A stretch of DNA of 64,000 bases from Antedon mediterranea. Taxonomy: Eukaryota > Echinodermata > Crinoidea > Comatulida > Antedonidae. The position numbers and the translations under genes were made by a program. The notes under the pieces were generated by a model. That model ran no database searches, was not told where the DNA came from, and saw only the letters and a list, made by a program, of their open reading frames with translations. The stretch spans positions 3,167,001 through 3,231,000 of the forward strand of contig NC_092673.1 in assembly GCF_964355755.1 (NCBI RefSeq), given 5' to 3'. This document shows, piece after piece, positions 8,617 through 64,000 of the stretch; the stretch's first letter is position 1; each line of letters starts with the position of its first letter.

Positions 8617-8625
8617 CCAGCAATC
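8617..8625. repeat. Target-site duplication, left copy (CCAGCAATC)
   Basis: These nine bases directly abut the left inverted terminus (ACCGGCG...). They are repeated exactly at 27683-27691 next to the right terminus. A perfect 9-bp duplication is the mark of a transposition event. Confidence 0.93.
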
Positions 8626-8782
8626 ACCGGCGTGAAGTTGGTTACTTATTCCTTATTCGATATTCAATTTTTTTTGTGAAGTTGGATCCTTATTCGACAT
8701 TCACATTCACATGTATGGGGCGCAATATGTGTAATATTTTAATTAAATGATTTTATACTTACGGCTTAGATTAACTAGGGCT
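8626..8782 (+). repeat. Left terminal inverted repeat, unique part
   Basis: These 157 bp precede the first satellite monomer. They start ACCGGCGTGAAGTTGG and contain a direct repeat of a block running gtgaagttgg to attcgaNattca, near 8632-8667 and 8676-8709. Paired sub-terminal repeats of this kind often serve as transposase binding sites. The reverse complement of 27526-27682 matches with no difference seen. Confidence 0.92.
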
Positions 8783-11700
8783 ATGATTTATAGGGCTATA
8801 ACTTCGTTATAAACAGCATGGACCGGGATGACGATACATGGGTTGGGGCTAGTAGGGTCCAGTCGTTTCAGAAAAATACCACTTGCCCCGGTCCATGCCG
8901 TCTAGCTGTCATTTTACGCCATTTTAAAACCTTACTACAATTTAATGTTTTTTAAAATAAAAAATGCAATATACCGGATGATTTATAGGGCTATAATTAC
9001 GTGATAAACGGCATGGACCGGGATGACGATACATGGATTGGGGCGAGTAGGATCTAGTCATTTCAGAAAAATACCACTTGCCCCGGTCCATGCCGTCTAG
9101 CTGCCATTTTACGCCATTTTAAAAGGTTACCACAATTTAAGTTTTTTTTTTTATAAAAAATGCAATATAACCGTATGATTTATAGGGCTATAATTACGTT
9201 ATAAACGGCATGGACCGGGATGACGATACATGGGTTGGGGCTAGTAGGGTCCTGTCGTTTCAGAAAAATACCACTTGCCCCGGTCCATGCCGTCTAACTG
9301 CCATTTTACGCCATTTTAAAACGTTACTACAATTTAAGTTTTTTTTAAATGAAAAATGTAATATTACCGGATGATTTATAGGGCTATAATTACGTTATAA
9401 ACGGCATGGACCGGGATGACGATACATGGGTTGGGGCTAGTAGGGTCCTGTCGTTTCAGAAAAATACCACTTGCCCCGGTCCATGCCGTCTAGCTGCCAT
9501 TTTACGCCATTTTAAAACGTTACTACAATTTAAGTTTTTTTTAAATGAAAAATGTAATATTACCGTATGATATATAGGGCTATAATTACGTTATAAACGG
9601 CATGGACCGGGATGACGATACATGGGTTGGGGCGAGTAGGGTCCAGTCATTTCAGAAAAATACCACTTGCCCCGGTCCATGCCGTCTAGCTAGCATTTTA
9701 CGCCATTTTAAAACGTTACCACAATTTAACGTTTTTTTTTATAAAAAATGAAATATAACCGAATGATTTATAGGGCTATAATTACGTTATGAACGGCATG
9801 GACCGGGATGACGATACATGGGTTGGGGCTAGTAGGGTCCAGTCGTTTCAGAAAAATACCACTTGCCCCGGTCCATGCCGTCTAGCTGTCATTTTACGCC
9901 CTTTTAAAACGTTACTACAATTTAACGTTTTTTAAAATAAAAATTGCAATATAACCGGATGAAATATAGGGCTATAATTACGTGATAAACGGCATGGACC
10001 GGGATGACGATACATGGATTGGGGCGAGTAGGATCTAGTCATTTCAGAAAAATACCACTTGCCCCGGTCCATGCCGTCTAGCTGCCATTTTACGCCATTT
10101 TAAAACGTTACCACAATTTAAGTTTTTTTTTTTTATAAAAAATGCAATATAACCGTATGATTTATAGGGCTATAATTACGTTATAAACGGCATGGATCGG
10201 GATGACGATACATGGGTTGGGGCTAGTAGGGTCCTGTCGTTTCAGAAAAATACCACTTGCCCCGGTCCATGCCGTCTAGCTGCCATTTTACGCCATTTTA
10301 AAACGTCACTACAATTTAAGTTTTTTTTAAAGGAAAAATGTAATATTACCGGATGATATATAGGGCTATAATTACGTTATAAACGGCATGGACCGGGATG
10401 ACGATACATGGGTTGGGGCGAGTAGGGTCCAGTCATTTCAGAAAAATACCACTTGCCCCGGTCCATGCCGTCTAGCTAGCATTTTACGCCATTTTAAAAC
10501 GTTACCACAATTTAACGTTTTTTTTAATAAAAAAATGAAATATAACCGAATGATTTATAGGGCTATAATTACGTTATGAACGGCATGGACCGGGATGACG
10601 ATACATGGGTTGGGGCTAGTAGGGTCCAGTCGTTTCAGAAAAATACCACTTGTCCCGGTCCATGCCGTCTAGCTGTCATTTTACGCCATTTTAAAACGTT
10701 ACTACAATTTAACGTTTTTTTAAATAAAAATTGCAATATAACCGGATGAAATATAGGGCTATAATTACGTGATAAACGGCATGGACCGGGATGACGATAC
10801 ATGGATTGGGGCGAGTAGGATCTAGTCATTTCAGAAAAATACCACTTGCCCCGGTCCATGCCGTCTAGCTGCAATTTTACGCCATTTTAAAACGTTACCA
10901 CAATTTAAGTTTTTTTTTATAAAAAATGCAATATAACCGTATGATTTATAGGGCTATAATTACGTTATAAACGGCATGGACCGGGATGACGATACATGGG
11001 TTGGGGCTAGTAGGGTCCTGTCGTTTCAGAAAAATACCACTTGCCGCGGTCCATGCTGTCTAGCTGCCATTTTACGCCATTTTAAAACGTTACTACAATT
11101 TAAGTTTTTTTTAAATGAAAAATGTAATATTACCGGATGATATATAGGGCTATATTTACGTTATAAACGGCATGGACCGGGATGACAATACATGGGTTGG
11201 GGCGAGTAGGGTCCAGTCATTTCAGAAAAATACCACTTGCCCCGGTCCATGCCGTCTAGCTGTCATTTTACGCCATTTTAAAACCTTACTACAATTTAAT
11301 GTTTTTTTAAAAAAAAAATGCAATATACCGGATGATTTATAGGGCTATAATTACGTGATAAACGGCATGGACCGGGATGACGATACATGGATTGGGGCGA
11401 GTAGGATCTAGTCATTTCAGAAAAATACCACTTGCCCCGGTCCATGCCGTCTAGCTGCCATTTTACGCCATTTTAAAACGTTACCACAATTTAAGTTTTT
11501 TTTTAATAAAAAATGCAATATAACCGTATGATTTATAGGGCTAAAATTACGTTATAAACGGCATGGACCGGGATGACGATACATGGGTTGGGGCTAGTAG
11601 GGTCCTGTCGTTTCAGAAAAATACCACTTGCCCCGGTCCATGCCGTCTAGCTGCCATTTTACGCCATTTTAAAACGTTACTACAATTTAAGTTTTTTTTA

Positions 11701-14700
11701 AATGAAAAATGTAATATTACCGGATGATATATAGGGCTATAATTACGTTATAAACGGCATGGACCGGGATGACGATACATGGGTTGGGGCGAGTAGGGTC
11801 CAGTCATTTCAGAAAAATACCACTTGCCCCGGTCCATGCCGTCTAGCTAGCATTTTACGCCATTTTAAAACGTTACCACAATTTAACGTTTTTTTTTATA
11901 AAAAAATGAAATATAACCGAATGATTTATAGGGCTATAATTACGTTATGAACGGCATGGACCGGGATGACGATACATGGGTTGGGGCTAGTAGGGTCCAG
12001 TCGTTTCAGAAAAATACCACTTGTCCCGGTCCATGCCGTCTAGCTGTCATTTTACGCCATTTTAAAACGTTACTACAATTTAACGTTTTTTTAAATAAAA
12101 ATTGCAATATAACCGGATGAAATATAGGGCTATAATTACGTGATAAACGGCATGGACCGGGATGACGATACATGGATTGGGGCGAGTAGGATCTAGTCAT
12201 TTCAGAAAAATACCACTTGCCCCGGTCCATGCCGTCTAGCTGCAATTTTACGCCATTTTAAAACGTTACCACAATTTAAGTTTTTTTTTATAAAAAATGC
12301 AATATAACCGTATGATTTATAGGGCTATAATTACGTTATAAACGGCATGGACCGGGATGACGATACATGGGTTGGGGCTAGTAGGGTCCTGTCGTTTCAG
12401 AAAAATACCACTTGCCGCGGTCCATGCTGTCTAGCTGCCATTTTACGCCATTTTAAAACGTTACTACAATTTAAGTTTTTTTTAAATGAAAAATGTAATA
12501 TTACCGGATGATATATAGGGCTATATTTACGTTATAAACGGCATGGACCGGGATGACAATACATGGGTTGGGGCGAGTAGGGTCCAGTCATTTCAGAAAA
12601 ATACCACTTGCCCCGGTCCATGCCGTCTAGCTGTCATTTTACGCCATTTTAAAACCTTACTACAATTTAATGTTTTTTTAAAAAAAAAATGCAATATACC
12701 GGATGATTTATAGGGCTATAATTACGTGATAAACGGCATGGACCGGGATGACGATACATGGATTGGGGCGAGTAGGATCTAGTCATTTCAGAAAAATACC
12801 ACTTGCCCCGGTCCATGCCGTCTAGCTGCCATTTTACGCCATTTTAAAACGTTACCACAATTTAAGTTTTTTTTTAATAAAAAATGCAATATAACCGTAT
12901 GATTTATAGGGCTAAAATTACGTTATAAACGGCATGGACCGGGATGACGATACATGGGTTGGGGCTAGTAGGGTCCTGTCGTTTCAGAAAAATACCACTT
13001 GCCCCGGTCCATGCCGTCTAGCTGCCATTTTACGCCATTTTAAAACGTTACTACAATTTAAGTTTTTTTTAAATGAAAAATGTAATATTACCGGATGATA
13101 TATAGGGCTATAATTACGTTATAAACGGCATGGACCGGGATGACGATACATGGGTTGGGGCGAGTAGGGTCCAGTCATTTCAGAAAAATACCACTTGCCC
13201 CGGTCCATGCCGTCTAGCTAGCATTTTACGCCATTTTAAAACGTTACCACAATTTAACGTTTTTTTTTATAAAAAAATGAAATATAACCGAATGATTTAT
13301 AGGGCTATAATTACGTTATGAACGGCATGGACCGGGATGACGATACATGGGTTGGGGCTAGTAGGGTCCAGTCGTTTCAGAAAAATACCACTTGCCCCGG
13401 TCCATGCCGTCTAGCTGTCATTTTACGCCATTTTAAAACGTTACTACAATTTAACGTTTTTTTAAATAAAAATTGCAATATAACCGGATGAAATATAGGG
13501 CTATAATTACGTGATAAACGGCATGGACCGGGATAACGATACATGGATTGGGGCGAGTAGGATCTAGTCATTTCAGAAAAATACCACTTGCCCCGGTCCA
13601 TGCCGTCTAGCTGCCATTTGACGCCATTTTAAAACGTTACCACAATTTAAGTTTTTTTTTTATAAAAAATGCAATATAACCGTATGATTTATAGGGCTAT
13701 AATTACGTTATAAACGGCATGGACCGGGATGACGATACATGGGTTGGGGCTAGTAGGGTCCTGTCGTTTCAGAAAAATACCACTTGCCGCGGTCCATGCC
13801 GTCTAGCTGCCATTTTACGCCATTTTAAAACGTTACTACAATTTAAGTTTTTTTTAAATGAAAAATGTAATATTACCGGATGATATATAGGGCTATAATT
13901 ACGTTATAAACGGCATGGACCGGGATGACGATACATGGGTTGGGGCGAGTAGGGTCCAGTCATTTCAGAAAAATACCACTTGCCCCGGTCCATGCCGTCT
14001 AGCTAGCATTTTACGCCATTTTAAAACGTTACCACAATTTAACGTTTTTTTTTATAAAAAAATGAAATATAACCGAATGATTTACAGGGCTATAATTACG
14101 TTATGAACGGCATGGACCGGGATGACGATACATGGGTTGGGGCTAGTAGGGTCCAGTCATTTCAGAAAAATACCACTTGCCCCGGTCCATGCCGTCTAGC
14201 TGTCATTTTACGCCATTTTAAAACCTTACTACAATTTAATGTTTTTTTTAAAAAAAAATGCAATATACCGGATGATTTATAGGGCTATAATTACGTGATA
14301 AACGGCATGGACCGGGATGACGATACATGGATTGGGGCGAGTAGGATCTAGTCATTTCAGAAAAATACCACTTGCCCCGGTCCATGCCGTCTAGCTGCCA
14401 TTTTACGCCATTTTAAAATGTTACTACAATTTAAGTTTTTTTTAAATGAAAAATGTAATATTACCGGATGATATATAGGGCTATAATTACGTTATAAACG
14501 GCATGGACCGGGATGACGATACATGGGTTGGGGCGAGTAGGGTCCAGTCATTTCAGAAAAATACCACTTGCCCCGGTCCATGCCGTCTAGCTAGCATTTT
14601 ACGCCATTTTAAAACGTTACCACAATTTAACGTTTTTTTTTATAAAAAAATGAAATATAACCGAATGATTTACAGGGCTATAATTACGTTATGAACGGCA

Positions 14701-15894
14701 TGGACCGGGATGACGATACATGGGTTGGGGCTAGTAGGGTCCAGTCATTTCAGAAAAATACCACTTGCCCCGGTCCATGCCGTCTAGCTGTCATTTTACG
14801 CCATTTTAAAACCTTACTACAATTTAATGTTTTTTTAAAAAAAAAATGCAATATACCGGATGATTTATAGGGCTATAATTACGTGATAAACGGCATGGAC
14901 CGGGATGACGATACATGGATTGGGGCGAGTAGGATCTAGTCATTTCAGAAAAATACCACTTGCCCCGGTCCATGCCGTCTATCTGCCATTTTACGCCATT
15001 TTAAAATGTTACTACAATTTAAGTTTTTTTTAAATGAAAAATGTAATATTACCGGATGATATATAGGGCTATAATTACGTTATAAACGGCATGGACCGGG
15101 ATGACGATACATGGGTTGGGGCGAGTAGGGTCCAGTCATTTCAGAAAAATACCACTTGCCCCGGTCCATGCCGTCTAGCTAGCATTTTACGCCATTTTAA
15201 AACGTTACCACAATTTAAGGTTTTTTTTTTATAAAAAAATGAAATATAACCGAATGATTTATAGGGCTATAATTACGTTATGAACGGCATGGACCGGGAT
15301 GACGATACATGGGTTGGGGCTAGTAGGGTCCAGTCGTTTCAGAAAAATACCACTTGCCCCGGTCCATGCCGTCTAGCTGTCATTTTACGCCATTTTAAAA
15401 CGTTACTACAATTTAACGTTTTTTTAAATAAAAATTGCAATATAACCGGATGAAATATAGGGCTATAATTACGTGATAAACGGCATGGACCGGGATGACG
15501 ATACATGGATTGGGGCGAGTAGGATCTAGTCATTTCAGAAAAATACCACTTGCCCCGGTCCATGCCGTCTAGCTGCCATTTTACGCCATTTTAAAATGTT
15601 ACTACAATTTAATTTTTTTTTATAAAAAATGCAATATAACCGGAAGATATATAGGGCTATAATTACGTTATAAACGGCATGGACCAGGATGACGATACAT
15701 GGGTTGGGGCCAGTAGCGTCCAGTCATTTCAGAAAAATACCACTTGCCCTGGTCCATGTCGTCTAGCTGTCATTTTACGCCATTTTAAAACGTTACTACA
15801 ATTGAACTTTAAAAAAAAATGCAATATAAACGCATGATTTATAGGGCTATAATTACGTTATAAACGGCATGGACCGGGATGACGATACGTGGGT
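8783..15894 (+). repeat. Satellite arm A: ~196-bp monomers, forward orientation
   Basis: About 37 head-to-tail monomers. Each reads atgatttatagggctataa, then cggcatggaccggg, gatgacgatacatgg, ggtccagtc, ccccggtccatgccg, ttttacgccattttaaaa, and an A/T-rich tail. Every monomer has an internal dyad: cggcatggaccggg pairs with ccccggtccatgccg some 50-65 bp later. Higher-order structure is clear: blocks starting near 10388 and 11759 repeat with a 1,371-bp (seven-monomer) period. Rare variants such as gggctaaaattacg, near 11538 and 12909, recur at exactly that spacing. Confidence 0.93.
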
Positions 15895-16001
15895 GAAATG
15901 ACTGGACCCTACTTGCCCCAATCAATGTATCGTCATCCCGGTCCATGCCGTTTATAACGTAATTATAGCCCTATAAATCATGCGTTTATATTGCATTTTT
16001 T
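15814..16001. repeat. Central palindrome joining the two satellite arms
   Basis: Arms 15814-15888 and 15927-16001 are perfect 75-bp reverse complements around a 38-bp spacer (15889-15926). The switch of monomer orientation falls at about 15894/15895, where a forward monomer cut after 'gatacgtgggt' meets an inverted one at 'gaaatgactgg'. Confidence 0.92.
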
Positions 16002-19000
16002 ATTTAAAAAAAAGTTAAATTGTAGTAACATTTTAAAATGGCGTAAAATGGCAGCTAGACGGCATAGACCGGGGCAAGTGGTATTTTTATAAAATCACTC
16101 GAACATACTCGCCTCAACCTATGTATCGTCATCCCGGTCCATGCCGTTTATAACGTAATTATAGCTCTATTATATCATGCATATATATTGCATTTTTTAT
16201 TTTTAAAAACGTAAAATTGTAGTAACGTTTTAAAATGGCGTAAAATGACAGCTAGACGGCATGGACCGGGGCAAGTGGTATTTTTCCAAAATGACTAGAC
16301 ACTACTCGTCCAAACCCATGCATCGTCATCCCGGTCCATGTCGTTTATAACGTAATTATAGCCCTATAAATCATACGTTTATAGTGCATTTTTTATTTTT
16401 AAAAACGTTAAATTGTAGTAACGTTTTAAAATGGCGTAAAATGACAGCTAGACGGCATGGACCGGGGCAAGTGGTACTTTTCTATAATGACTAGACCCTA
16501 CTCGCACCAACCCATGTATCGTCATCCCGGTCCATGACGTTTATAACGTAATTATAGCCCTATATATCATCCGGTTATATTGCATTTTTTATAAAAAAAA
16601 GTTAAATTGTAGTAACGTTTTAAAATGGCGTGAAATGGCCGCTAGACGGCATGGACCGGGTCAAGTGGTATTTTTCTGAAACGACTGGACCCTACTAGCC
16701 CAACCCATGTATCGTCATCCCGGTCCATAGCGTTTATAACGTAATTATAGCCCTATAAATCATACGTTTACATTGCATTTTTTATGAAAACCTTAAATTG
16801 TAATAACGTTTTAAAATGGCGTAAAATGACAGCTAGACGGCATGGACCGGGGCAAGTTGTATTTTTCTGAAATGACTGGACCCTACTCGCCCCAACCCAT
16901 GTATCGTTATCCCGGTCCATGCCGTTTATAACGTAATTATAGCCCTATACATCATACGTTTACATTGCATTTTTTATGAAAACCTTAAATTGTAGTAACG
17001 TTTTAAAATGGCGTAAAATGACAGCTAGACGGCATGGATCGGGGTAAGAGGTATATTTCTGAAATGACTGGACCCTACTCGCCCCAACCCATGTATCGTC
17101 ATCCCGGTCCATGCCGTTTATAACGTAATTATAGCCCTATATATCATCCGGTTATATTGCATTTTTTATAAAAACGTTAAATTGTAGTAAGGTTTTAAAA
17201 TGGCGTGAAATGGCAGCTAGACGGCATGGACTGGGGCAAGTGGTATATTTCTGAAACGACTGGACCCTACTAGCCCTAACCCATGTATCGTCATCCCGGT
17301 CCATGCCGTTTATAACGTAATTATAGCCCTATAATCATTCGGTTATATTGTATTTTTTATATAAAAAAAACGTTAAATTGTAGTAACGTTTTAAAATGGC
17401 GTAAAATGATAGCTAGACGGCATGGACCGTGGCAAGTGGTATTTTTCTGAATTGACTGGACCCTACTTGCCCCAACCCATGTATCGTTATCTCGGTCCAT
17501 GCCGTTTATAACGTAATTATAGCCCTATATTTCATCCGGTTATATTGAATTTTTTATAAAAACGTTAAATTGTAGTAACGTTTTAAAATGGCGTGAAATG
17601 GCAGCTAGACGGCATGGACCGGGTCAAGTGGTATTTTTCTGAAACTACTGGACCCTACTAGCCCCAAACCATGTATCGTCATCCCGGTCCATACCGTTTA
17701 TAACGTCATTATAATAGCCCTATAAATCATTCGGTTATATTGCATTTTGTATTTAAAAAAAAAAATTGTAGTACCGGTAACGTTTTAAAATGGCTTAAAA
17801 TGACAGCTAGACGGCATGGACCGGGGCAAGTGGTATTTTTCTGAAATGACTGGACCCTACTAGCCCCAACCCATGTATCGTCATCCCGGTCCATGCCGTT
17901 TATAACGTAATTATAGCCCTATAAATCATTCGGTTAAATTGCATTTTTTATTTAAAAAAATTAAATTGTAGTACCGGTAACGTTTTAAAATGGCGTAAAA
18001 TGACAGCTAGACGGCATGGACCGAGACAAGTGGTATTTTTATGCAATGACTGGACACTACTCGCCCCAACCCATGTATCGTCATCCCGGTCCAGGCCGTT
18101 TATAACGTCATTATAGCCCTATATATCATCCTGTTATATTGCATTTTTTATTTTAAAAAACGTTATATTGTAGTAACGTTTTAAAATGGCATAAAATGAT
18201 AGCTAGACGGCATGGACCGGGGCAAGTGGTATTTTTCTGAATTTACTGGACCCTACTTGCCCCAACCCATGTATCGTCATCCCGGTCCATGCCGTTTGTA
18301 ACGTAATTATAGCCCTATAAATCATACGTTTACATTGCATTTTTTATGAAAACCTTAAATTGTACTAACGTTTTAAAATGGCGTAAAATGACAGCTAGAC
18401 GGCATGGACCGGGGTAAGAGGTATTTTTCTGAAATGACTGGACCCTACTCGCCCCAACCCATGTATCGTCATCCCGGTCCATGTCGTTTATAACGTAATT
18501 ATAGCCCTATATTTCATCCGGTTATATTGCAATTTTTATAAAAACGTTAATTTGTAGTAAGGTTTTAAAATGGCGTGAAATGGCAGCTAGACGTCATGGA
18601 CCGGGTCAAGTGGTATTTTTCTGAAACTACTGGACCCTACTAGCCCCAACCCATGTATCGTCATCCCGGTCCATGCCGTTTATAACGTAATTATAGCCCT
18701 ACAAATCATTCGGTTATATTGCATTTTTTATTTAAAAAAATTAAATTGTAGTACCGGTAACGTTTTAAAATGGTGTAAAATTACAGCTAGACGGCATGGA
18801 CCGGGGCAAGTGGTATTTTTCTGAAATGACTGGACCCTACTCGCCCCAACCCATGTATCGTCATCCCGGTCTATGCCGTTTATAACGTAATTATAGCCCT
18901 ATATATCATCCTGTTATATTGCATTTTTTATTTAAAAAAACGTTAAATTGTAGTAACGTTTTAAAATGGCGTAAAATGACAGCTAAACGGCATGGACCGG

Positions 19001-22000
19001 GGCAAGTGGTATTTTTCAGAAACGACTGGACCCTACTAGCTTAACCCATGTATCGTCATCCCGGTCCATGCCGTTTATAACGTAATTATAGCCCTATAAA
19101 TCATTCGGTTATATTTCATTTTTTTTATAAAAAAAAAACGTTAAATTGTGGTAACGTTTTAAAATGGCGTAAAATGCTAGCTAGACGGCATGGACCGGGG
19201 CAAGTGGTATTTTTCTGAAATGACTGGACCCAACTCGCCCGAAACTATGTATCGTAATCCCGGTCCATGCCGTTTATAACGTAATTATAGCCCTATATAT
19301 CATCCGGTAATATTACATTTTTCATTTAAAAAAAACTTAAATTGTAGTAATGTTTTAAAATGGCGTAAAATGGCAGCTAGACGGCATGGACCGGGGCAAG
19401 TGGTATTTTTCTGAAACGACAGGACCCTACTAGCCCCAACCCATGTATCGTCATCGCGGTCCATGCCGTTTATAACGTAATTGTAGCCCTATAAATCATA
19501 CGGTTATATTGCATTTTTTATAAAAAAAAACTTAAATTGTAGTAACGTTTTAAAATGGCGTAAAATGACAGCTAGACGGCATGGACCGGGGTAAGAGGTA
19601 TTTTTCTGAAATGACTGGACCCTCCTCGCCCCAACCCATGTATCGTCATCCCGGTCCATGTCGTTTATAACGTAATTATAGCCCTATATTTCATCCGGTT
19701 ACATTGCAATTTTTATAAAAACGTTAATTTGTAGTAAGGTTTTAAAATGGCGTGAAATGGCAGCTAGACGGCATGGACCGGGTCAAGTGGTATTTTTCTG
19801 AAACTACTGGACCTTACTAGCCCCAACCCATGTATCGTCATCCCGGTCCATGCCGTTTATAACGTAATTATAGCCCTATAAATCATTCGGTTATATTGCA
19901 TTTTTTATTAAAAAAAACGTTAAATTGTAGTAACCTTTTAAAATGGCGTAAAATGATAGCTAGACGGCATGGACCGGGGCAAGTGGTATTTTTATGAATT
20001 AACTGGACCCTACTTGCCCCAACCCATGTATCGTCATCCCGGTCCATGCCGTTTATGACGTAATTATAGCCCTATAAATCATTCGGTTATATTGCATTTT
20101 GTATTTTAAAAAATTACAATGTAGTACCGGTAACGTTTTAAAATGGCTTAAAATGACAGCTAGACGGCATGGACCGGGGCAAGTTGTACTTTTCTGAAAT
20201 GACTGGACCCTACTCGCCACAACCCATGTATCGTTATCCCGGTCCATGCCGTTTATAACGTAATTATAGCCCTATACATCATACGTTTACATTGCATTTT
20301 TTATGAAAACCTTAAATTGTAGTAACGTTTTAAAATGGCGTAAAATGACAGCTAGACGGCATGGACCGAGACAAGTGGTATTTTTATGCAATGACTGGAC
20401 ACTACTCGCCCCAACCCATGTATCGTCATCCCGGTCCAGGCCGTTTATAACGTCATTATAGCCCTATATATCATCCTGTTATATTGCATTTTTTATTTTA
20501 AAAAACGTTATATTGTAGTAACGTTTTAAAATGGCATAAAATGATAGCTAGACGGCATGGACCGGGGCAAGTGGTATTTTTCTGAATTGACTGGACCCTA
20601 CTTGCCCCAACCCATGTATCGTCATCCCGGTCCATGCCGTTTGTAACGTAATTATAGCCCTATAAATCATACGTTTACATTGCATTTTTTATGAAAACCT
20701 TAAATTGTAGTAACGTTTTAAAATGGCGTAAAATGACAGCTAGACGGCATGGACCGGGGTAAGAGGTATTTTTCTGAAATGACTGGACCCTACTCGCCCC
20801 AACCCATGTATCGTCATCCCGGTCCATGTCGTTTATAACGTAATTATAGCCCTATATTTCATCCGGTTATATTGCAATTTTTATAAAAACGTTAATTTGT
20901 AGTAAGGTTTTAAAATGGTGTGAAATGGCAGCTAGACGTCATGGACCGGGTCAAGTGGTATTTTTCTGAAACTACTGGACCCTACTAGCCCCAACCCATG
21001 TATCGTCATCCCGGTCCATGCCGTTTATAACGTAATTATAGCCCTACAAATCATTCGGTTATATTGCATTTTTTATTTAAAAAAATTAAATTGTAGTACC
21101 GGTAACGTTTTAAAATGGTGTAAAATTACAGCTAGACGGCATGGACCGGGGCAAGTGGTATTTTTCTGAAATGACTGGACCCTACTCGCCCCAACCCATG
21201 TATCGTCATCCCGGTCTATGCCGTTTATAACGTAATTATAGCCCTATATATCATCCTGTTATATTGCATTTTTTATTTAAAAAAACGTTAAATTGTAGTA
21301 ACGTTTTAAAATGGCGTAAAATGACAGCTAAACGGCATGGACCGGGGCAAGTGGTATTTTTCAGAAACGACTGGACCCTACTAGCTTAACCCATGTATCG
21401 TCATGCCGGTCCATGCCGTTTATAACGTAATTATAGCCCTATAAATCATTCGGTTATATTTCATTTTTTTTATTAAAAAAAACCGTTAAATTGTGGTAAC
21501 GTTTTAAAATGGCGTAAAATGCTAGCTAGACGGCATGGACCGGGGCAAGTGGTATTTTTCTGAAATGACTGGACCCAACTCGCCCGAAACTATGTATCGT
21601 AATCCCGGTCCATGCCGTTTATAACGTAATTATAGCCCTATATATCATCCGGTAATATTACATTTTTCATTTAAAAAAAACTTAAATTGTAGTAATGTTT
21701 TAAAATGGCGTAAAATGGCAGCTAGACGGCATGGACCGGGGCAAGTGGTATTTTTCTGAAACGACAGGACCCTACTAGCCCCAACCCATGTATCGTCATC
21801 GCGGTCCATGCCGTTTATAACGTAATTGTAGCCCTATAAATCATACGGTTATATTGCATTTTTTATAAAAAAAAACTTAAATTGTAGTAACGTTTTAAAA
21901 TGGCGTAAAATGACAGCTAGACGGCATGGACCGGGGTAAGAGGTATTTTTCTGAAATGACTGGACCCTCCTCGCCCCAACCCATGTATCGTCATCCCGAT

Positions 22001-25000
22001 CCATGTCGTTTATAACGTAATTATAGCCCTATATTTCATCCGGTTACATTGCAATTTTTATAAAAACGTTAATTTGTAGTAAGGTTTTAAAATGGCGTGA
22101 AATGGCAGCTAGACGGCATGGACCGGGTCAAGTGGTATTTTTCTGAAACTACTGGACCTTACTAGCCCCAACCCATGTATCGTCATCCCGGTCCATGCCG
22201 TTTATAACGTAATTATAGCCCTATAAATCATTCGGTTATATTGCATTTTTTATTAAAAAAAACGTTAAATTGTAGTAACCTTTTAAAATGGCGTAAAATG
22301 ATAGCTAGACGGCATGGACCGGGGCAAGTGGTATTTTTATGAATTAACTGGACCCTACTTGCCCCAACCCATGTATCGTCATCCCGGTCCATGCCGTTTA
22401 TGACGTAATTATAGCCCTATAAATCATTCGGTTATATTGCATTTTGTATTTTAAAAAATTACAATGTAGTACCGGTAACGTTTTAAAATGGCTTAAAATG
22501 ACAGCTAGACGGCATGGACCGGGGCAAGTTGTACTTTTCTGAAATGACTGGACCCTACTCGCCACAACCCATGTATCGTTATCCCGGTCCATGCCGTTTA
22601 TAACGTAATTATAGCCCTATACATCATACGTTTACATTGCATTTTTTATGAAAACCTTAAATTGTAGTAACGTTTTAAAATGGCGTAAAATGACAGCTAG
22701 ACGACATGGATCGGGGTAAGAGGTATATTTCTGAAATGACTGGACCCTATTCGCCCCAACCCATGTATCGTCATCCCCGGTCTATGCCGTTTATAACGTA
22801 ATTATAGCCCTATATATCATCCGGTTATATTGCATTTTTTATAAAAACGTTAAATTGTAGTAAGGTTTTAAAATGGCGTGAAATGGCAGCTAGACGGCAT
22901 GGACCGGGCAAGTGGTATATTTCTGAAACGACTGGACCCTACTAGCCCTAACCCATGTATCGTCATCCCGGTCCATGCCGTTTATAACGTAATTATAGCC
23001 CTATAAATCATTCGGTTATATTGCATTTTTTATTTAAAAACATTAAATTGTAGTACCTGTAACGTTTTGAAATGGTGTAAAATTACAGCTAGACGGCATG
23101 GACCGGGGCAAGTGGTATTTTTCTGAAATGACTGGACCCTACTCGCCCCAACCCATGTATCGTCATCCCGGTCTATGCCGTTTATAACGTAATTATAGCC
23201 CTATATATCATCCTGTTATATTGCATTTTTTATTTAAAAAAAACGTTAATTTGTAGTAACGTTTTAAAATGGCATAAAATGATAGCTAGACGGCATGGAC
23301 CGGGGCAAGTGGTATTTTTCTGAATTGACTGGACCTTACTTGCCCCAACCCATGTATCGTCAGCCCGGTCCATGTCGTTTATAACGTAATTATAGCCCTA
23401 TATATCATCCGGTAATATTACATTTTTCATTTAAAAAAAACTTAAATTGTAGTAACGTTTTAAAATGGCGTAAAATGGCAGCTAGACGGCATGGACCGCG
23501 GCAAGTGGTATTTTTCTGAAACGACAGGACCCTACTAGCCCCAACCCATGTATCGTCATCCCGGTCCATGCCGTTTATAACGTAATTATAGCCCTATAAA
23601 TCATACGGTTATATTGCATTTTTTATAAAAAAAAAACTTAAATTGTGGTAACGTTTTAAAATGGCGTCAAATGGCAGCTAGACGGCATGGACCGGGGCAA
23701 GTGGTATTTTTCTGAAATGACTAGATCCTACTCGCCCCAATCCATGTATCGTTATCCCGGTCCATGCCGTTTATCACGTAATTATAGCCCTATATTTCAT
23801 CCGGTTATATTGCAATTTTTATTTAAAAAAACGTTAAATTGTAGTAACGTTTTAAAATGGCGTAAAATGACAGCTAGACGGCATGGACCGGGGCAAGTGG
23901 TATTTTTCTGAAACGACTGGACCCTACTAGCCCCAACCCATGTATCGTCATCCCGGTCCATGCCGTTCATAACGTAATTATAGCCCTATAAATCATTCGG
24001 TTATATTTCATTTTTTTATAAAAAAAAACGTTAAATTGTGGTAACGTTTTAAAATGGCGTAAAATGCTAGCTAGACGGCATGGACCGGGGCAAGTGGTAT
24101 TTTTCTGAAATGACTGGACCCTACTCGCCCCAACCCATGTATCGTCATCCCGGTCCATGCCGTTTATAACGTAATTATAGCCCTATACATCATCCGGTAA
24201 TATTACATTTTTCATTTAAAAAAAACTTAAATTGTAGTAACGTTTTAAAATGGCGTAAAATGGCAGCTAGACGGCATGGACCGGGGCAAGTGGTATTTTT
24301 CTGAAACGACAGGACCCTACTAGCCCCAACCCATGTATCGTCATCCCGGTCCATGCCGTTTATAACGTAATTATAGCCCTATAAATCATACGGTTATATT
24401 GCATTTTTTATTTAAAAAAAACTTAAATTGTGGTAACGTTTTAAAATGGCGTAAAATGGCAGCTAGACGGCATGGACCGGGGCAAGTGGTATTTTTCTGA
24501 AATGACTAGATCCTACTCGCCCCAATCCATGTATCGTCATCCCGGTCCATGCCGTTTATCACGTAATTATAGCCCTATAAATCATCCGGTATATTGCATT
24601 TTTTTTTTTAAAAAACATTAAATTGTAGTAAGGTTTTAAAATGGCGTAAAATGACAGCTAGACGGCATGGACCGGGGCAAGTGGTATTTTTCTGAAATGA
24701 CTGGACCCTACTCGCCCCAACCCATGTATTGTCATCCCGGTCCATGCCGTTTATAACGTAAATATAGCCCTATATATCATCCGGTAATATTACATTTTTC
24801 ATTTAAAAAAAACTTAAATTGTAGTAACGTTTTAAAATGGCGTAAAATGGCAGCTAGACAGCATGGACCGCGGCAAGTGGTATTTTTCTGAAACGACAGG
24901 ACCCTACTAGCCCCAACCCATGTATCGTCATCCCGGTCCATGCCGTTTATAACGTAATTATAGCCCTATAAATCATACGGTTATATTGCATTTTTTATAA

Positions 25001-27525
25001 AAAAAAACTTAAATTGTGGTAACGTTTTAAAATGGCGTAAAATTGCAGCTAGACGGCATGGACCGGGGCAAGTGGTATTTTTCTGAAATGACTAGATCCT
25101 ACTCGCCCCAATCCATGTATCGTCATCCCGGTCCATGCCGTTTATCACGTAATTATAGCCCTATATTTCATCCGGTTATATTGCAATTTTTATTTAAAAA
25201 AACGTTAAATTGTAGTAACGTTTTAAAATGGCGTAAAATGACAGCTAGACGGCATGGACCGGGGCAAGTGGTATTTTTCTGAAACGACTGGACCCTACTA
25301 GCCCCAACCCATGTATCGTCATCCCGGTCCATGCCGTTCATAACGTAATTATAGCCCTATAAATCATTCGGTTATATTTCATTTTTTTATTAAAAAAAAC
25401 GTTAAATTGTGGTAACGTTTTAAAATGGCGTAAAATGCTAGCTAGACGGCATGGACCGGGGCAAGTGGTATTTTTCTGAAATGACTGGACCCTACTCGCC
25501 CCAACCCATGTATCGTCATCCCGGTCCATGCCGTTTATAACGTAATTATAGCCCTATATATCATCCGGTAATATTACATTTTTCCTTTAAAAAAAACTTA
25601 AATTGTAGTAACGTTTTAAAATGGCGTAAAATGGCAGCTAGACGGCATGGACCGGGGGAAGTGGTATTTTTCTGAAACGACAGGACCCTACTAGCCCCAA
25701 CCCATGTATCGTCATCCCGGTCCATGCCGTTTATAACGTAATTATAGCCCTATAAATCATACGGTTATATTGCATTTTTTATAAAAAAAAAAACTTAAAT
25801 TGTGGTAACGTTTTAAAATGGCGTAAAATGGCAGCTAGACGGCATGGACCGGGGCAAGTGGTATTTTTCTGAAATGACTAGATCCTACTCGCCCCAATCC
25901 ATGTATCGTCATCCCGGTCCATGCCGTTTATCACGTAATTATAGCCCTATATTTCATCCGGTTATATTGCAATTTTTATTTAAAAAAACGTTAAATTGTA
26001 GTAACGTTTTAAAATGGCGTAAAATGACAGCTAGACGGCATGGACCGGGGCAAGTGGTATTTTTCTGAAACGACTGGACCCTACTAGCCCCAACCCATGT
26101 ATCGTCATCCCGGTCCATGCCGTTCATAACGTAATTATAGCCCTATAAATCATTCGGTTATATTTCATTTTTTATAAAAAAAAACGTTAAATTGTGGTAA
26201 CGTTTTAAAATGGCGTAAAATGCTAGCTAGACGGCATGGACCGGGGCAAGTGGTATTTTTCTGAAATGACTGGACCCTACTCGCCCCAACCCATGTATCG
26301 TCATCCCGGTCCATGCCGTTTATAACGTAATTATAGCCCTATATATCATACGGTAATATTACATTTTTCATTTAAAAAAAACTTAAATTGTAGTAACGTT
26401 TTAAAATGGCGTAAAATGGCAGCTAGACGGCATGGACCGGGGCAAGTGGTATTTTTCTGAAACGACAGGACCCTACTAGCCCCAACCCATGTATCGTCAT
26501 CCCGGTCCATGCCGTTTATCACGTAATTATAGCCCTATATTTCATCCGGTTATATTGCAATTTTTATTTAAAAAAACGTTAAATTGTAGTAACGTTTTAA
26601 AATGGCGTAAAATGACAGCTAGACGGCATGGACCGGGGCAAGTGGTATTTTTCTGAAACGACTGGACCCTACTAGCCCCAACCCATGTATCGTCATCCCG
26701 GTCCATGCCGTTCATAACGTAATTATAGCCCTATAAATCATTCGGTTATATTTCATTTTTTATAAAAAAAACCGTTAAATTGTGGTAACGTTTTAAAATG
26801 GCGTAAAATGCTAGCTAGACGGCATGGACCGGGGCAAGTGGTATTTTTCTGAAATGACTGGACCCTACTCGCCCCAACCCATGTATCGTCATCCCGGTCC
26901 ATGCCGTTTATAACGTAATTATAGCCCTATATATCATACGGTAATATTACATTTTTCATTTAAAAAAAACTTAAATTGTAGTAACGTTTTAAAATGGCGT
27001 AAAATGGCAGCTAGACGGCATGGACCGGGGCAAGTGGTATTTTTCTGAAACGACAGGACCCTACTAGCCCCAACCCATGTATCGTCATCCCGGTCCATGC
27101 CGTTTATAACGTAATTATAGCCCTATAAATCATACGGTTATATTGCATTTTTTTATTTAAAAAAAACTTAAATTGTGGTAACGTTTTAAAATGGCGTAAA
27201 ATGGCAGCTAGACGGCATGGACCGGGGCAAGTGGTATTTTTCTGAAATGACTAGATCCTACTCGCCCCAATCCATGTATCGTCATCCCGGTCCATGCCGT
27301 TTATCACGTAATTATAGCCCTATAAATCATCCGGTATATTGCATATTTTATTTAAAAAAACATTAAATTGTAGTAAGTTTTTAAAATGGCGTAAAATGAC
27401 AGCTAGACGGCATGGACCGGGGCAAGTGGTATTTTTCTGAAACGACTGGACCCTACTAGCCCCAACCCATGTATCGTCATCCCGGTCCATGCTGTTTATA
27501 ACGAAGTTATAGCCCTATAAATCAT
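15895..27525 (-). repeat. Satellite arm B: ~196-bp monomers, inverted orientation
   Basis: About 59 monomers of the same family as arm A on the opposite strand. The inner part (to ~22.9 kb) is more divergent; the outer part (~23.5-27.5 kb) matches monomer types of arm A closely. A 2,345-bp (twelve-monomer) block is tandemly duplicated: about 18001-20345 and 20346-22690. Variants such as 'ggaccgagacaag' (near 18020 and 20365) support the spacing. The 1,371-bp period of arm A is also present near 24158/25529. Confidence 0.92.
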
Positions 27526-27682
27526 AGCCCTAGTTAATCTAAGCCGTAAGTATAAAATCATTTAATTAAAATATTACACATATTGCGCCCCATACATGTG
27601 AATGTGAATGTCGAATAAGGATCCAACTTCACAAAAAAAATTGAATATCGAATAAGGAATAAGTAACCAACTTCACGCCGGT
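27526..27682 (-). repeat. Right terminal inverted repeat, unique part
   Basis: These 157 bp are the reverse complement of 8626-8782, including the same 8-base A/T run. The equal length and apparent identity suggest a recent insertion or recent gene conversion between termini. Confidence 0.92.
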
Positions 27683-27691
27683 CCAGCAATC
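27683..27691. repeat. Target-site duplication, right copy (CCAGCAATC)
   Basis: Exact copy of 8617-8625, directly adjoining the right terminus. Confidence 0.93.
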
Positions 27692-36409: not shown

Positions 36410-37351
36410 TTATGTATCACCAATTATGCTCTGGACACTGAAACTCAACGCTGGCCTCTTTGTTGCTGACATTCTCTTTTTATCATCTTGTGAGAGTAAC
36501 TCATTTCCAGCGCTTCTTTGTATTCCTACGTCATATTTACGTAGAACCGATGTGAAGTTTGAATAATGACCAGCTATGCGATAAGAGGGGGGCGATTCCC
36601 CTTCATGTACGCTACCAGTAATGGAACTGGAATTAATAGGCCTATCAGTGGTCAATTCTGATGTCGACGACAGCAGCAGACGTTTAGAACCAGATAAGAC
36701 TACTGGATGTGGAATGGTGTTTGCAGCCGACGACGGAGAGGATGTTTCAGATGGCGTTGCAGCAGTGGAAGATGTCTGTTGTTCTGATCGACGTTTCCTC
36801 TTGCGACGGAAGTTGCCATTGTCAAACATTTTTTCACAATCTGGGTCTAGTGTCCAGTAATTTCCTTTCCCAGGGTCTCCATCATTCCGTGGAACTTTGA
36901 CGAAACAATCGTTTAGAGATAAATTGTGTCGTATTGAGTTTTGCCATCCAGTTTTACTTTTTTTGTAAAATGGAAAATGATCAGAAACAAATCTGTAAAT
37001 ACCACTAAGCGTGATTTTCTTGTCTTTAGCCGACTGAATCGACATCGCAATGAGAGCTGAGTAAGAATACGGCGGTCGTACAATTTTGTACAGATCATGA
37101 TGTGTTGCAGCGAATGGAAACCAAATGTCCGTGGGGTTTAAATAGGTCGAGCTGGGCAGAGGAATTCGGTGATAACTAGGTTGATGATGGCCTGGATAGT
37201 AGCCTGTTGAGTTATGGAAGTCTAGCCCTACTGTTGAAACGTAAGGCGATGTATGTGTCCCAAGTAATCCAGATGTGTCTGCTAGTCTCACTGGTGTTGG
37301 GTGCTGTATCGACGAATACTCCATTGTAGTTTCACCGTTGTAGTAATACAT
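36410..37351 (-). CDS. FOXI: Forkhead box transcription factor, FoxI class
   Basis: The single-exon gene encodes 313 residues. A forkhead (winged-helix) DNA-binding domain spans about residues 91-185: [16 protein letters not shown], then recognition-helix text [16 protein letters not shown], then [10 protein letters not shown]. The FoxI-typical extension [17 protein letters not shown] follows directly and supplies a basic nuclear-localisation cluster. The N-terminus is Tyr/His/Pro/Ser-rich and the C-terminus Ser/Thr-rich, ending [14 protein letters not shown] chose the ATG at 37351; an in-frame ATG nine codons later is the alternative. FoxI factors act in ectodermal, pharyngeal and ionocyte development in vertebrates; the role here is not shown. 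Class assignment rests on the domain plus extension. Vertebrate FOXI genes usually have an intron after the domain, which is absent here. Confidence 0.92.
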
Positions 37352-37463
37352 ATCGATAAAATATTAATTCCTGTAAATATGTGATTCTTACAGAGTTTTT
37401 TTCACAGGGTATTAGACATCCAGAACTTTAGCAAACGAGTCTATCTGCAACCGAAAAGTTGTA

Positions 37464-51300: not shown

Positions 51301-54300
51301 TGTTGAATTTATTTATATTTAAAGAAAATTGTTTAGCAGTATGTGAGGTCCTTTGTGGGAAGAAAGGGGTATGGGGCTAGGGTCTTCTTCATTGAGGTAT
51401 TGACTAGAGGGTGGACTCTTGACTGGTATGGGGCTGGGGTCTTCACATTAAGGTATTGACTAGAGGGTGGACTCCTGACTGGTATGGGGCTAGGGTCTTC
51501 ACATTGAGGTATTGACTAGAGCAGGGAAATAGAGGGTGGACTCCTGACTGGTATGGAGCTGGGGTCTTCCCATTTAGGTATTGACTAGAGGGTGCACTCC
51601 TGACTGGTATGAGGCTGGGGTCTTCCCATTTAGGTATTGACTAGAGGGTGCACTCCTGACTGGTATGGGGCTGGGGTCTTCCCATTGAGGTATTGACTAG
51701 AGGGTGCACTCCTGACTGGTATGGGGCTGGGGTCTTCCCATTTAGGTATTGACTAGAGGGTGCACTCCTGACTGGTATGGGGCTGGGGTCTTCCCGTTGA
51801 GGTATTGACTAGAGGGTGCACTCCTGACTGGTATGGGGCTGGGGTCTTCACATTAAGGTATTGGCTAGAGGGTGCACTCCTGACTTGTATGGGCTGGGGT
51901 CTTCCCGTTGAGGTATTGACTAGAGGGTGCACTCCGGACTGGTATGGGGCTGGGGTCTTCCCGTTGAGGTATTGGCTAGAGGGTGCACTCCTGACTGGTA
52001 TGGGGCTGGGGTCTTCCCATTAAGGTATTGGCTAGAGGGTGCACTCCTGACTGGTATGGGGCTGGGGTCTTCCCATTGAGGTATTGACTAGAGGGTGCAC
52101 TCCTGACTGGTATGGGGCTGGGGTCTTCCCATTGAGGTATTGGCTAGAGGGTGCACTCCTGACTTGTATGGGGCTAGGGTCTTCCCATTGAGGTATTGAC
52201 TAGAGGGTGCACTCCTGACTGGTATGGGGCTGGGGTCTTCCCATTAAGGTATTGACTAGAGGGTGCACTCCTGACTGGTATGGGGCTGGGGTCTTCCCAT
52301 TAAGGTATTGGCTAGAGGGTGCACTCCTGACTGATATTGGGCTGAGGTCTTCCCATTAAGGTATTGGCTAGAGGGTGCACTCCTGACTGGTATTGGGCTG
52401 GGGTCTTCCCATTAAGGTATTGGCTAGAGGGTGCACTCCTGACTAGTATTGGGCTGGGGTCTTCCCGTTAAGGTATTGGCTAGAGGGTGCACTCCTGATT
52501 GGTATGGGGCTGGGGTCTTCCCATTGAGGTATTGACTAGAGGGTGCACTCCTGACTGGTATGGGGCTGGGGTCTTCCCATTAAGGTATTGACTAGAGGGT
52601 GCACTCCTGACTGGTATGGGGCACGTTTTTTAATTTTTTTATGTTTTATTGCAGCGTATGCTACCAATTGATGGGGCAAATGACTTATTCTACAAAGTTC
52701 CACCGAAACAAATATGCAATAAAATATACACCATTCGTCCATTTCGTAACTCTGATGAGGTAAACATGATTAATTTTGCAAATTTTGTTTGACTAGTAGG
52801 TTGAGATACAAACTGTAACTTATACTTATTTGGCAAGGTCAAGGTTTTTATCTGTGGTGCACACAGATCCGTGAAAGACCGTTGTTTATGAAAGGAATGT
52901 GTTGTTATCTGGATGAGGCATGCAATTCATCAAAGCAGATGATTCAAAATGCTTTCCATCCAACATCTTGTATTTAATACAGCTCTTACATCTTACGCTT
53001 CAGTTGCGTGGGATAGAACGTTATATTGTAATGCAAGAATATAATGTTGTAATTTCTATTATTACAGTTAGGAATATTTAGGCAGTGTCGTATGACTTAC
53101 CAAGATGGTAGAGATGCTACTGACTTGTTCTCTGAGCACCTTCGTCTACCAGGAAACAAGTAAGATATATTTATTTATTATTATTTTGCACTGATGACGG
53201 GCTAGTGTTGCCCGAAACCTCTGCTATTTTTTCTGGCTGTTTTACTTTACTGTTTTTGAGTTAGCTTTTTGCTTATTTGAGATCCAGCCACTGTTTTTTC
53301 AGTGCTTGTTTTATTTTGTATCTCCATTGAGGTCCAGCCACTGATACCCACAGCATTGTAATTTTTTTCTGTAATTTGCCTTTGGATTTATTATTATTTT
53401 ATATATATTATACTGTGAGTATATCAGACCCATGCCTCTTGGATGCTAGTAGGATATCTCTTATTATTACACCATGTTGCTCTCTCAAATTCTGGTGACA
53501 CCCAAGAGTAGAAGTTGGTGGTTTAATGTTGAGATTTTTCTTAATATAACAATTATATTCATTTTTAGAAAAGTAGGTGCTCTACTCACATTTAGTCCTG
53601 AATACTGTTTTGTTGCCGAGGAAGATGGTGAATTATGTGGTTATGCCCTGGCAACCCTCGACTCGATGGAATTCCAAAAGAAATGCGAACTGGCTTGGCT
53701 ACCGGAAATGTGTATGAAGTATCCTAAACCAGAGAAGACCGAAGGGCTAACACTTGCTGAGGTATTTAATACTTGCCTTTTTATTAAAAAATCTCTTCAG
53801 TCAAAGACTGGTCTGCCAGAGAGCCCAGTTGGTGATCAGTGGCTGTGATGTACTAATACACCGGGGTAACCCCCTACTCGTCTCGAAAGATGTACAAGGT
53901 TCTTTAAAGTGCACACAAGCTAGTTGTGTATACTGGACCTACAGTTTATAGTCCTTATCCAAAAAGACTCGTTCTACCACCAGAACCATGGAGTGAGTGA
54001 GTCTCGAATCCCTGCCGATGTTATGGCTACGTAATTACGGTTCCACTGTCTTAACCGCTCGGCCACTCACTCACTCACAGTAATTTTGTTTCATTATTTT
54101 GTTTTTTTCAGATGATCATTGTCAGCTTTCACAATCACAAGCCATTCAGACCTGTGAACATGTTTCAACGATTTCCATCATTATTAACAATGAGCGTGTT
54201 GTCAAGTGTTGAGGATCAAGGTGTGTTAAAGAATCTATTGGCATGTATACTGTCAGCTCTTAAGGCGAATGGTAAGTAATGTACATCCAATTAAAGATCT

Positions 54301-62035: not shown

Positions 62036-63145
62036 AACTGCTTTTAAAATATAGTTAACTTGTGGCCCGAACGGGCTTCCGTACACTATAAAAAGACATT
62101 AACATAATATATGCACATACATAGCAATATTTATGATATAAATAGTTATAATGTGTTGTTATTTACTTATCTTACAAAAGATTACAGAAGAAAAAGCATG
62201 TTATCGCTGAAAAAATGTTTTATTCTCTTCATTTCGTTTCTGAAACTGTACATATTTTACAAGTTGATCTAAAGATGTCATGTACTAAAAAAGAACACAT
62301 TTTACACACTAACATTAAAGAAGTTATAACAAACAAATGATTACATGTTTTACATTACAACATTATAGATATAATGTTACAAATTATTTCCATCGAGGTA
62401 TTTTTTAAATTTAGGCAGTAAATAAAGGTACGGATATTCCTTATTCTTCATAACCAAATTCATTTAACAATGCAATTACACACAGTTATATATTAAAAAA
62501 TAAATACAATAAATGTTAGGTATCTAGAAGCAGCCTGGTATTCTTTAAGTGAACATTGCTTTAGTGTGAACCAGCCTGTATTCACACAAGTTTCATGTAG
62601 ATACAATTCTTACAGATACATTTGTTAGTTAACTAATTGGTTCCCAGCACCAGATATGACCTTTAAACTTTACTACAATTCTGTGTTTTGACATTATATG
62701 AAGACCACAAACATGAAAAAATGGCAAATCTGTCGTTATTTGTATTGTGAAGGAGAACTACTAATTGAATATCATACAGAAAATATCGTTAGTTACAGAA
62801 AATGTACAGAGTATCTTCTCAATGTTTCACCATTTTCAAATTCCACTTCAAAACATGCAGACCACAAATACATTATTTTACATTTTACATTAAACTCATT
62901 CTACAGAAACCATCAAATGAATTTGTTACGTAAGAATTATCATTTACAAATGATCAAAATGCTGGTATTGCTTAATTAGTATTTTATTTAAGCACACTTT
63001 ATATTTAACTGATTGAAACAGTTGTAGTATAAAAGCCAATTTACACAGAATAAAAATATATTATTATTATTGTTATTTCTTATGACCATATACACACAAT
63101 ACAGAGCGGACAGACTGTTTCTGCTCAGTATAGATACAAATTTTA
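62036..63145. other. AT-rich region without recognised genes
   Basis: No splice-bounded exon, RNA gene or repeat family found. An open frame at 62698-62979 has AT-biased composition and no family similarity I can see. It could be a 3' UTR of a gene beyond the window, but nothing shows this. Confidence 0.4.
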
Positions 63146-63397
63146 TGCGGGACAAGCTACGCGATTTGCGGGACAAGCTACACGGTTTGCGGGACAAGCT
63201 ACACGGTTTGCGGAACAAACTACACGGTTTGCGGGACAAACTACACGGTTTGCGGAACAAGCTACACGGTTTGCGGGAAAAGCTACACGGTTTGCGGGAC
63301 AAGCTACACGGTTTGCGGGACAAGCTACACGGTTTGCGGGACAAGCTACACGGTTTGCGGGACAAGCTACACGGTTTGCGGGACAATCTACACGGTA
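63146..63397. repeat. 21-bp minisatellite, ~12 copies
   Basis: Unit contains gcgggacaagctacacggtt with a 21-bp period. Because 21 is a multiple of three, it stays open on both strands (RDKLHGL repeats one way, SRKPCSL the other). I do not regard either as a protein. Confidence 0.92.
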
Positions 63398-64000
63398 TGC
63401 CGCTTACTGTTTAACTTAATTCTACAGTTGTAGTAGTATGGAGCAAGGAAACAGAGACTGAAAACCAGACTAGGAGGAGGAGAAGAAGGAGGAGGAGGAG
63501 AAGGAAAGTCACCTGGGGGATGCAGATCGAAAGCCAGTGATGGATAATCACAAAATTTGTAGGGTGATATACCTTCACACAGACTGGTACATCATCTATG
63601 AACTGACTAGGTGATGCAAATACTTATCTTCTCGCTACTTCAGTTTTGCCCTTTTTAAAAATGTTAACCTTATGTAATTTCAATATTGCTGCCATAAATG
63701 CGCTTTTCTCTGTGTACCCTTTTTACAAATGCATTCATTTTACACAGAAACACATGTTATATCAGTATTATGATACTCAATTGTGATACATATTTTTCTA
63801 TTATTTTATAAATTTAATAAACTACCAAACTACTTGCTTTTTACATAATTTTAGTATCATCAAGTAAGGCACCATGGCACAACATGGAAGACAACAAACA
63901 TAGCAACAAATATTAAATATATGTATTATATTATAGAAAAATATGTTAATGATGATATATCATTAAAACTCACTATAATAAAGGCTACTATACATTACCA
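63398..64000. other. Non-coding end of window
   Basis: A purine-rich GGA tract at about 63469-63507, then AT-rich DNA. Nothing further recognised. Confidence 0.4.

Follow-up and report, generated by a model that had tools for sequence, protein, structure and literature searches.

How did a palindrome of 19 kb, built almost entirely of satellite repeats, come to lie between two perfect copies of the same nine nucleotides? The question is raised by a stretch of 64,000 nucleotides from the genome of the feather star Antedon mediterranea (class Crinoidea), which is called the window here (C4:3167001-3231000; the genome comprises 354 Mb in 18 contigs). A previous inspection of its letters (the sequence-only reading) had left two alternatives: either a transposase moved a very large palindrome, or a small element was inserted and its arms then expanded in place. 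The element occupies positions 8626-27682 of the window (19,057 bp). It is probably a non-autonomous class II (cut-and-paste) foldback transposon which, judged by the published traits of Rehavkus elements, most likely derives in giant form from an element of that kind, related to Mutator. A centre junction and an order of satellite monomers shared between loci favour the first alternative, and arm turnover also continues. Most likely, the arms were already long when the recent dispersal began, travelled with the element and have undergone further turnover at their sites.

Structure of the window element

The outer edges of the element carry the same letters, CCAGCAATC, at 8617-8625 on the left and 27683-27691 on the right, which form a target-site duplication (TSD) of 9 bp. 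Inside them lie the terminal inverted repeats. The left one (8626-8782, forward strand, 157 bp) is non-satellite DNA starting with ACCGGCGTGAAGTTGG, and the right one (27526-27682, reverse strand, 157 bp) is its exact reverse complement. The exact identity of the two ends runs beyond the 157-bp termini, to 304 bp. The space between the termini is filled by two opposed arrays of a monomer of about 196 bp, as established by a tandem-array search and a count of anchors. The left arm (8783-15893, forward strand) has 37 anchors, its array being detected at 8783-15894 with 36.3 copies of 196 bp. The right arm (15894-27525, reverse strand) has 60 anchors and 59.4 copies. The orientation of the satellite flips at 15893-15894, a junction common to four further elements. 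The arms are unequal (7.1 vs 11.6 kb), and the centre at about 15,893 is off the midpoint. The identical termini, the perfect 9-bp TSD and an interior of about 96 opposed monomers and nothing else had all been described in the sequence-only reading; they were borne out here, with 97 anchors in total.

This structure is not a product of chance, because 10 further loci have these termini as facing pairs, and all but one of the 11 pairs are flanked by identical 9-mers. An ordinary satellite array, which runs head-to-tail and has no fixed ends, is excluded by the fixed 157-bp ends and the TSDs. Long inverted arms of tandem repeats with little or no middle, together with TSDs at many sites, are the features of the foldback class. 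The monomer of the satellite that was examined has an internal 15-bp inverted repeat (ACGGCATGGACCGGG and its complement). Terminus and monomer were compared and have only short A/T-rich stretches in common, a result that speaks against the idea that the arms are terminal binding sites in multiplied form. The satellite arms need not serve as binding sites.

Distribution of the elements in the genome

The window element and its closest relatives are called family A. In the search with the family-A terminus the best 40 of 65 candidates were scored, and the pair counts obtained from it are lower bounds. Twenty-two of the scored matches form 11 pairs, three lie at locus L032, three belong to a second family, and 12 are single or diverged. 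Family A has at least 11 pairs of facing termini, including the window element, with lengths of 11,994-24,408 bp. The ends are ACCGG...CCGGT in all 11 elements. Identical 9-mers stand outside 10 of them, the exception being C11 (ATATAAATG vs CGATAAATG). The arm sizes range from 6/53 to 52/40 monomers, with up to 70 in one arm; elements C8 and C5a were read except for 1.4 and 5.4 kb of their middle, and these gaps were left out of the monomer counts.

The three weaker matches led to family B, which has at least eight pairs of 7.8-20.4 kb. A 310-bp family-B terminus used as the query gave 41 places (63 candidates, 40 scored), at least 16 of them in the eight B pairs and 14 in family A. The outer part of about 80 bp is common to the A and B termini at 82-84%. 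The family-B satellite has a unit of 181/190 bp, and its core of 46-81 bp is about 73-85% like the A core. Identical 9-mers were found outside seven of the eight B elements, and the remaining one agrees at 7 of 9 positions. Both families together occupy at least 19 loci on 8 contigs, and perfect 9-bp TSDs flank 17 of the 19 elements. As had been anticipated from the window alone, the terminus thus recurs elsewhere in facing pairs and the duplications beside other copies are 9 bp long in both families, which supports a foldback element bounded by TSDs. A 28-nt terminal motif with at most three mismatches was found at 61 places, vs 0 for the backward control. Thirty-eight of these are the ends of the 19 elements and the 23 others are mostly single ends; the search was gapless and for that reason misses a terminus on contig C2.

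Two further places were noted. A small copy at L032 (C10:11434641-11439240; L032:301-4222) has 3.9 kb between its termini, an extra nested terminus and a duplicated left flank. It was excluded from the counts, being nested and without matching 9-mers on inspection by eye. A single family-A terminus lies 7.2 kb from the start of contig C5 (C5:1-7358) and points towards that edge of the contig, which possibly starts within an element.

Long palindromic repeats assemble poorly, and the lone terminus facing the end of C5 could be read in the same sense. It is nevertheless scarcely credible that the palindromes are assembly artefacts: they stand at 19 loci on 8 contigs, the flanks of the 11 family-A elements differ, the arm lengths differ, and 17 of the 19 have matching 9-bp duplications.

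Centre junctions and monomer order

Seven kinds of centre junction were found among the 11 family-A elements. One of them is common to five elements on five contigs, lying one way in the window element and C7b and reversed in C11, C8 and C5b; the six others are private. Over eight units to one side of the shared junction, C7b, C8 and C5b match one another at 92-100%, with at least 97% in 17 of 24 comparisons. The window element and C11 match at 96-99% over two units to either side.

Local alignment of the monomer strings detected a shared order in five arm pairs from different loci: C5b_R/C4a_L (24 monomers), C7a_R/C4b_R (27), window_R/C11_R (14), C8_R/C4a_L (14) and C8_R/C5b_R (12). The shared runs of the last pair cover the outer part and the part adjoining the centre. 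The median divergence in the five runs is 0.6-1.2%. Seven arm pairs, namely these five and two within-element pairs, were each shuffled 100 times, and the observed score was never reached. Over all arm pairs, including those within elements, shared runs of three or more contain 370 monomers vs 30.7 in shuffles.

The divergence of the termini is 0.95% within elements and 1.0% between elements, while that of the monomers inside an arm is 8.1% (k-mer distance). Arms grown after insertion from few monomers would be expected to be about as uniform as the termini. The difference between 8.1% and about 1%, and the sharing of a centre junction and of monomer order at about 1% divergence in spite of the diversity within each arm, therefore argue that the long arms predate the recent dispersal.

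Turnover within the arms

The elements with the shared centre differ in the sizes of their arms, which are 37/60, 19/44, 35/60 (with 1.4 kb unread), 52/40 and 37/25 monomers. The nearest relative was determined for 775 monomers. It lies in the same arm for 351.5 of them (40.2 with shuffled labels), in another element for 374 and in the opposite arm for 49.5. The same-arm count indicates that the arms turn over in place by the duplication of blocks within arms, and the offsets of such duplications are often 3, 7, 8, 11-13 or 15 units. In two of the 11 elements most of one arm was recently copied from a part of the other, over 21 monomers in the window element (0.55%) and 14 in C8. The window arms resemble each other more closely than either resembles C11, the nearest relative (1.1%); the C8 copy is not closer than its match to C5b. 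At the private centres, the joined parts share 0-4 bp in five cases, and in C4b 16 bp that are the monomer's own inverted repeat. Joins of this kind are expected where a palindrome has been cut at its tip or the tip has been bridged by copying.

Growth in place offers another explanation of the long arms. A small foldback element with one to ten monomers per end would have been inserted at each site, and its arms would have grown there by unequal exchange. Tetris of Drosophila virilis is so described in the available part of its account (PMC4079207), and in Antedon there are diverged terminus copies with few monomers, about 1 to 10 within 4-5 kb inward in L033-L041. The widely varying arm lengths and the many same-arm relatives also fit, but the junction common to five of the 11 elements, the shared monomer order, and a within-arm divergence of 8.1% vs about 1% between termini make this origin unlikely. 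Another possibility is that the arms were homogenised between elements after insertion by non-allelic gene conversion or recombination, in which case order and junctions would be shared without large elements moving. The arm-to-arm copying in two elements shows that exchange happens, and in some pairs the flanks of the junction agree on one side only. Homogenisation would, however, require conversion between chromosomes to have happened repeatedly, in tracts of several kb: the blocks in common are found on different contigs, they include both the outer and the centre-adjoining parts in C8_R/C5b_R, and their divergence of about 1% is about the same as that of the termini. We regard it as improbable.

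Several results weigh against the movement of ready-made long arms. The nearest relatives of 351.5 of the 775 monomers are in the same arm, six of the 11 centre junctions are private, and the TSD is imperfect in 2 of the 19 elements. Most other comparisons beside the junctions give about 84-94%, the level of unrelated monomers, and the second side of the shared junction is at this level too when C7b is compared with C8 (84-93%) or C5b. The neighbourhood of the shared junction appears from these values to have been reshuffled since. Among the five collinear pairs, C7a_R/C4b_R is the weakest (14.2 observed vs 9.9 for the best shuffle). Of 231 arm pairs, 11 had no path and 220 were scored, and 24 of the latter exceeded the best of 40 shuffled pairs. 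The right arms of three family-B elements, one read nearly whole and two in part, were compared and gave no clear collinearity, which is a further point on this side. Taken with the shared centre and order, dispersal of elements already bearing long arms is still the most likely course, followed by turnover at each site.

The transposase locus

The giant elements themselves carry no gene. At C2:17926764-17929467 a transposase is followed by satellite A and then by terminus A (17931522-17931666, 85.6%). The gene consists of a PHD finger (PF00628, E 3.8e-8, above the cut-off), pieces of a DDE transposase in shifted frames and a C-terminal part. The adjoining satellite has five full monomers and one partial monomer, 89-95% like monomer A. 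A read-through protein, made for searches only, has 16 relatives, including a protein of Holothuria leucospilota (45%) and fish proteins. An alignment-based protein search added P0017 (47%) and P0018 (36%), whose PHD finger lies N-terminal of the DDE region as in C2; none of the four matches of that search for a named Tribolium or annelid relative was so named. The PHD finger of P0005 from Betta splendens is at the C-terminal end, behind a C48-protease-like stretch. Most rows of the transposase alignment A1 show the motifs D, D, C-H and E. Every row has the D and W of D-SW and also the H and C of the C-H stretch. Among the rows long enough to cover them, most preserve DATGS and E-WF, and one row has N in place of the first D.

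Traits of Rehavkus are thus found at C2 and in the families: a PHD finger (one broken copy), a satellite between gene end and terminus (one locus) and 9-bp TSDs. The sequence-only reading had supposed an enzyme of the Mutator or Phantom type. This guess was close and is unconfirmed, as the linked transposase has Rehavkus features and its read-through protein gives no match to PF10551, the Pfam domain of Mutator-like elements (MULEs), up to E 5. A search for an autonomous copy with the same termini had also been proposed there. The broken C2 locus answers to such a copy in part, and an intact autonomous element with A or B ends was not found among the termini listed. A genome search with P0017 gave 15 matching pieces, at C2, C4:13.58 Mb, C3:8.30 Mb, C10 and weaker places. 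At C3:8298922-8302023 (forward strand) there is an open frame of 1,108 residues with 26% identity to the PHD-type transposase; it may represent a different family in intact form. It was rejected as the autonomous partner, no terminus being near it among the places in the gapless or best-scored lists; for the copy at C4:13.58 Mb, too, no A or B terminus is near among the places listed, and a diverged terminus at C3 is possible. Two diverged B termini face each other 33.5 kb apart at C4:12969233-13002768, with a fragment of a PHD-type transposase frame between them, possibly what is left of an element that carried a gene.

The assignment to a Rehavkus-like enzyme has its own difficulties. The sole terminus-linked copy of the transposase has frameshifts, and the 8.4 kb upstream of it yielded no left terminus. 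A Pfam PHD finger was found in three of the nine relatives scanned (P0005, P0017 and P0018) and not in P0001, P0003, P0006, P0008, P0012 and the partial P0015. Of 36 PF10551 places in the genome, one (C4:9705235, to 9705510) lies inward of a solitary diverged B terminus at C4:9685422, at a distance of 19.6 kb. The enzyme might come from another group with 9-bp TSDs, for instance the Phantom-type MULEs or the relatives of the Drosophila FB/NOF enzyme, and the PHD-type gene at C2 would be a bystander. We think this doubtful. No other PF10551 place is near a terminus by eye against the places listed, and the C2 gene runs straight into satellite A and terminus A. The 9-bp TSD, the PHD finger and the satellite on the C-terminal side also match the published summary of Rehavkus, so far as its available part goes (PMC6446971). 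A Rehavkus-like source is probable on these grounds.

Proposed mechanism

We infer action in trans, a C2-type enzyme as the mover, an origin by inverted duplication and the size at each insertion. The 157-bp ends would be bound by a DDE transposase with a PHD finger, made elsewhere and acting in trans, which would excise the whole element and insert it at a staggered cut of 9 bp, as the TSD and the relatives suggest. Both ends of a giant element resemble the 3' end of the C2 locus, where the satellite is followed by the terminus, and for this reason the giant form probably arose when the satellite-bearing 3' end of an autonomous element was duplicated in inverted orientation and the gene was lost. 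Between and after jumps the arms would change, monomer blocks being duplicated and lost, one arm occasionally copied to the other and the centre remade.

A bolder proposal is that the palindrome is a replicating form. A satellite strand would fold back during or after excision and be copied into the other arm, and transposition would regenerate, lengthen and equalise the arms. The likeness of the window arms (0.55%), the centres remade at 0-4 shared bases and the C4b centre at the monomer's inverted repeat are compatible with it, and we put it forward as a speculation with a small chance of being right. If true, the transposon would work as an engine for breeding satellite arrays, and it would set down ready-made arrays of 10-20 kb at new sites.

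Other features of the window and related loci

A second satellite lies at 56590-61864 of the window, with a period of 195/391 bp and about 26 units; its monomer contains the near-palindrome ATGCGCAGA...TCTGCGCAT. It was considered as a third element family and rejected, since no such termini were seen at its edges by eye. A 56-bp minisatellite of 22 copies occupies 51368-52622 in a region with strong strand skew. At 62988-63419 there is a 21-bp repeat of 12 copies that is open in several frames on both strands. An open frame of 317 codons at 36410-37363 (reverse strand) is presumably of the Forkhead type. Outside the window, about 0.9 kb separate satellite A from a 417-codon open frame at L036:1-1251 (reverse strand), which looks like a long interspersed nuclear element (LINE) of the CR1 type.

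Comparison with known systems

Foldback elements with inverted arms of tandem repeats, as in Antedon, include FB of Drosophila and TU of sea urchins, which measure a few kb. The Rehavkus group is placed beside or within the MULEs. The published accounts compared below were available in part. Rehavkus elements are summarised as having a 9-bp TSD, termini of 26-400 bp, a PHD finger and a minisatellite on the C-terminal side, with arthropods and annelids as hosts (PMC6446971). Rehavkus-1_TC of Tribolium castaneum is 9.5 kb long, and its inverted termini carry a satellite of 164-bp units, where five and eight are the usual numbers of monomers (PMC10218199). The Antedon elements resemble them in the 9-bp TSD, the satellite in inverted termini, the PHD-finger transposase and the satellite by the C-terminal end of the gene. 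In contrast, their host is an echinoderm, the giants are gene-free, the arms reach 70 monomers and family A measures 12-24 kb.

Tetris of D. virilis is a non-autonomous foldback element with tandem repeats of about 220 bp inside its inverted ends, and the Antedon elements are like it in this plan. Satellite arrays with as many as 66 copies are reported to derive from it, and fluorescence in situ hybridisation on fibres located a long array inside Tetris ends (PMC4079207). Three structurally complete copies with TSDs are described, one of them with three or four repeats in its left end, and the authors suggested that larger arrays may have disrupted transposition (PMC4079207). Unlike Tetris, complete long-armed copies are numerous in Antedon and several have a common order. 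The Tetris repeats have 37 bp in common with the terminus, whereas the Antedon monomer and terminus share only the short A/T-rich stretches. Galileo of Drosophila is similar in its long terminal inverted repeats with variable internal tandem repeats, and differs in its 7-bp TSD, its P-superfamily enzyme, inverted repeats of up to about 1.26 kb and at most three internal repeats (PMC3573991).

No account of the Antedon element family was met in the literature searched, most subscription journals lying outside its coverage, and the available parts of PMC13359780, PMC12628747, PMC4438587, PMC4298943 and PMC6431247 contain nothing on it. The Rehavkus-like group would be extended beyond its published hosts to a crinoid, and a sea cucumber and fishes also have related proteins. 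Inverted satellite arms in elements of 12-24 kb are found at many chromosome sites of one animal, where at least 19 satellite-bearing elements have been inserted as mobile DNA, apparently with long satellite blocks aboard. Whether transposons seed a few repeats or carry long ready-made arrays is posed as an open question in the available part of PMC10218199. The 19 TSD-bounded giants in one genome offer a direct test of seeding against carrying, in which the order of monomers can be used like a bar code to trace ancestry. Satellite-armed foldback elements are already known from Tetris and Rehavkus-1_TC, and less so from Galileo. Relative to the accessible parts of the literature examined, what the Antedon elements add is the gene-free size of 12-24 kb, arms of up to 70 monomers, many complete copies bounded by TSDs, and dispersal that appears to have taken place with the long arms in place.

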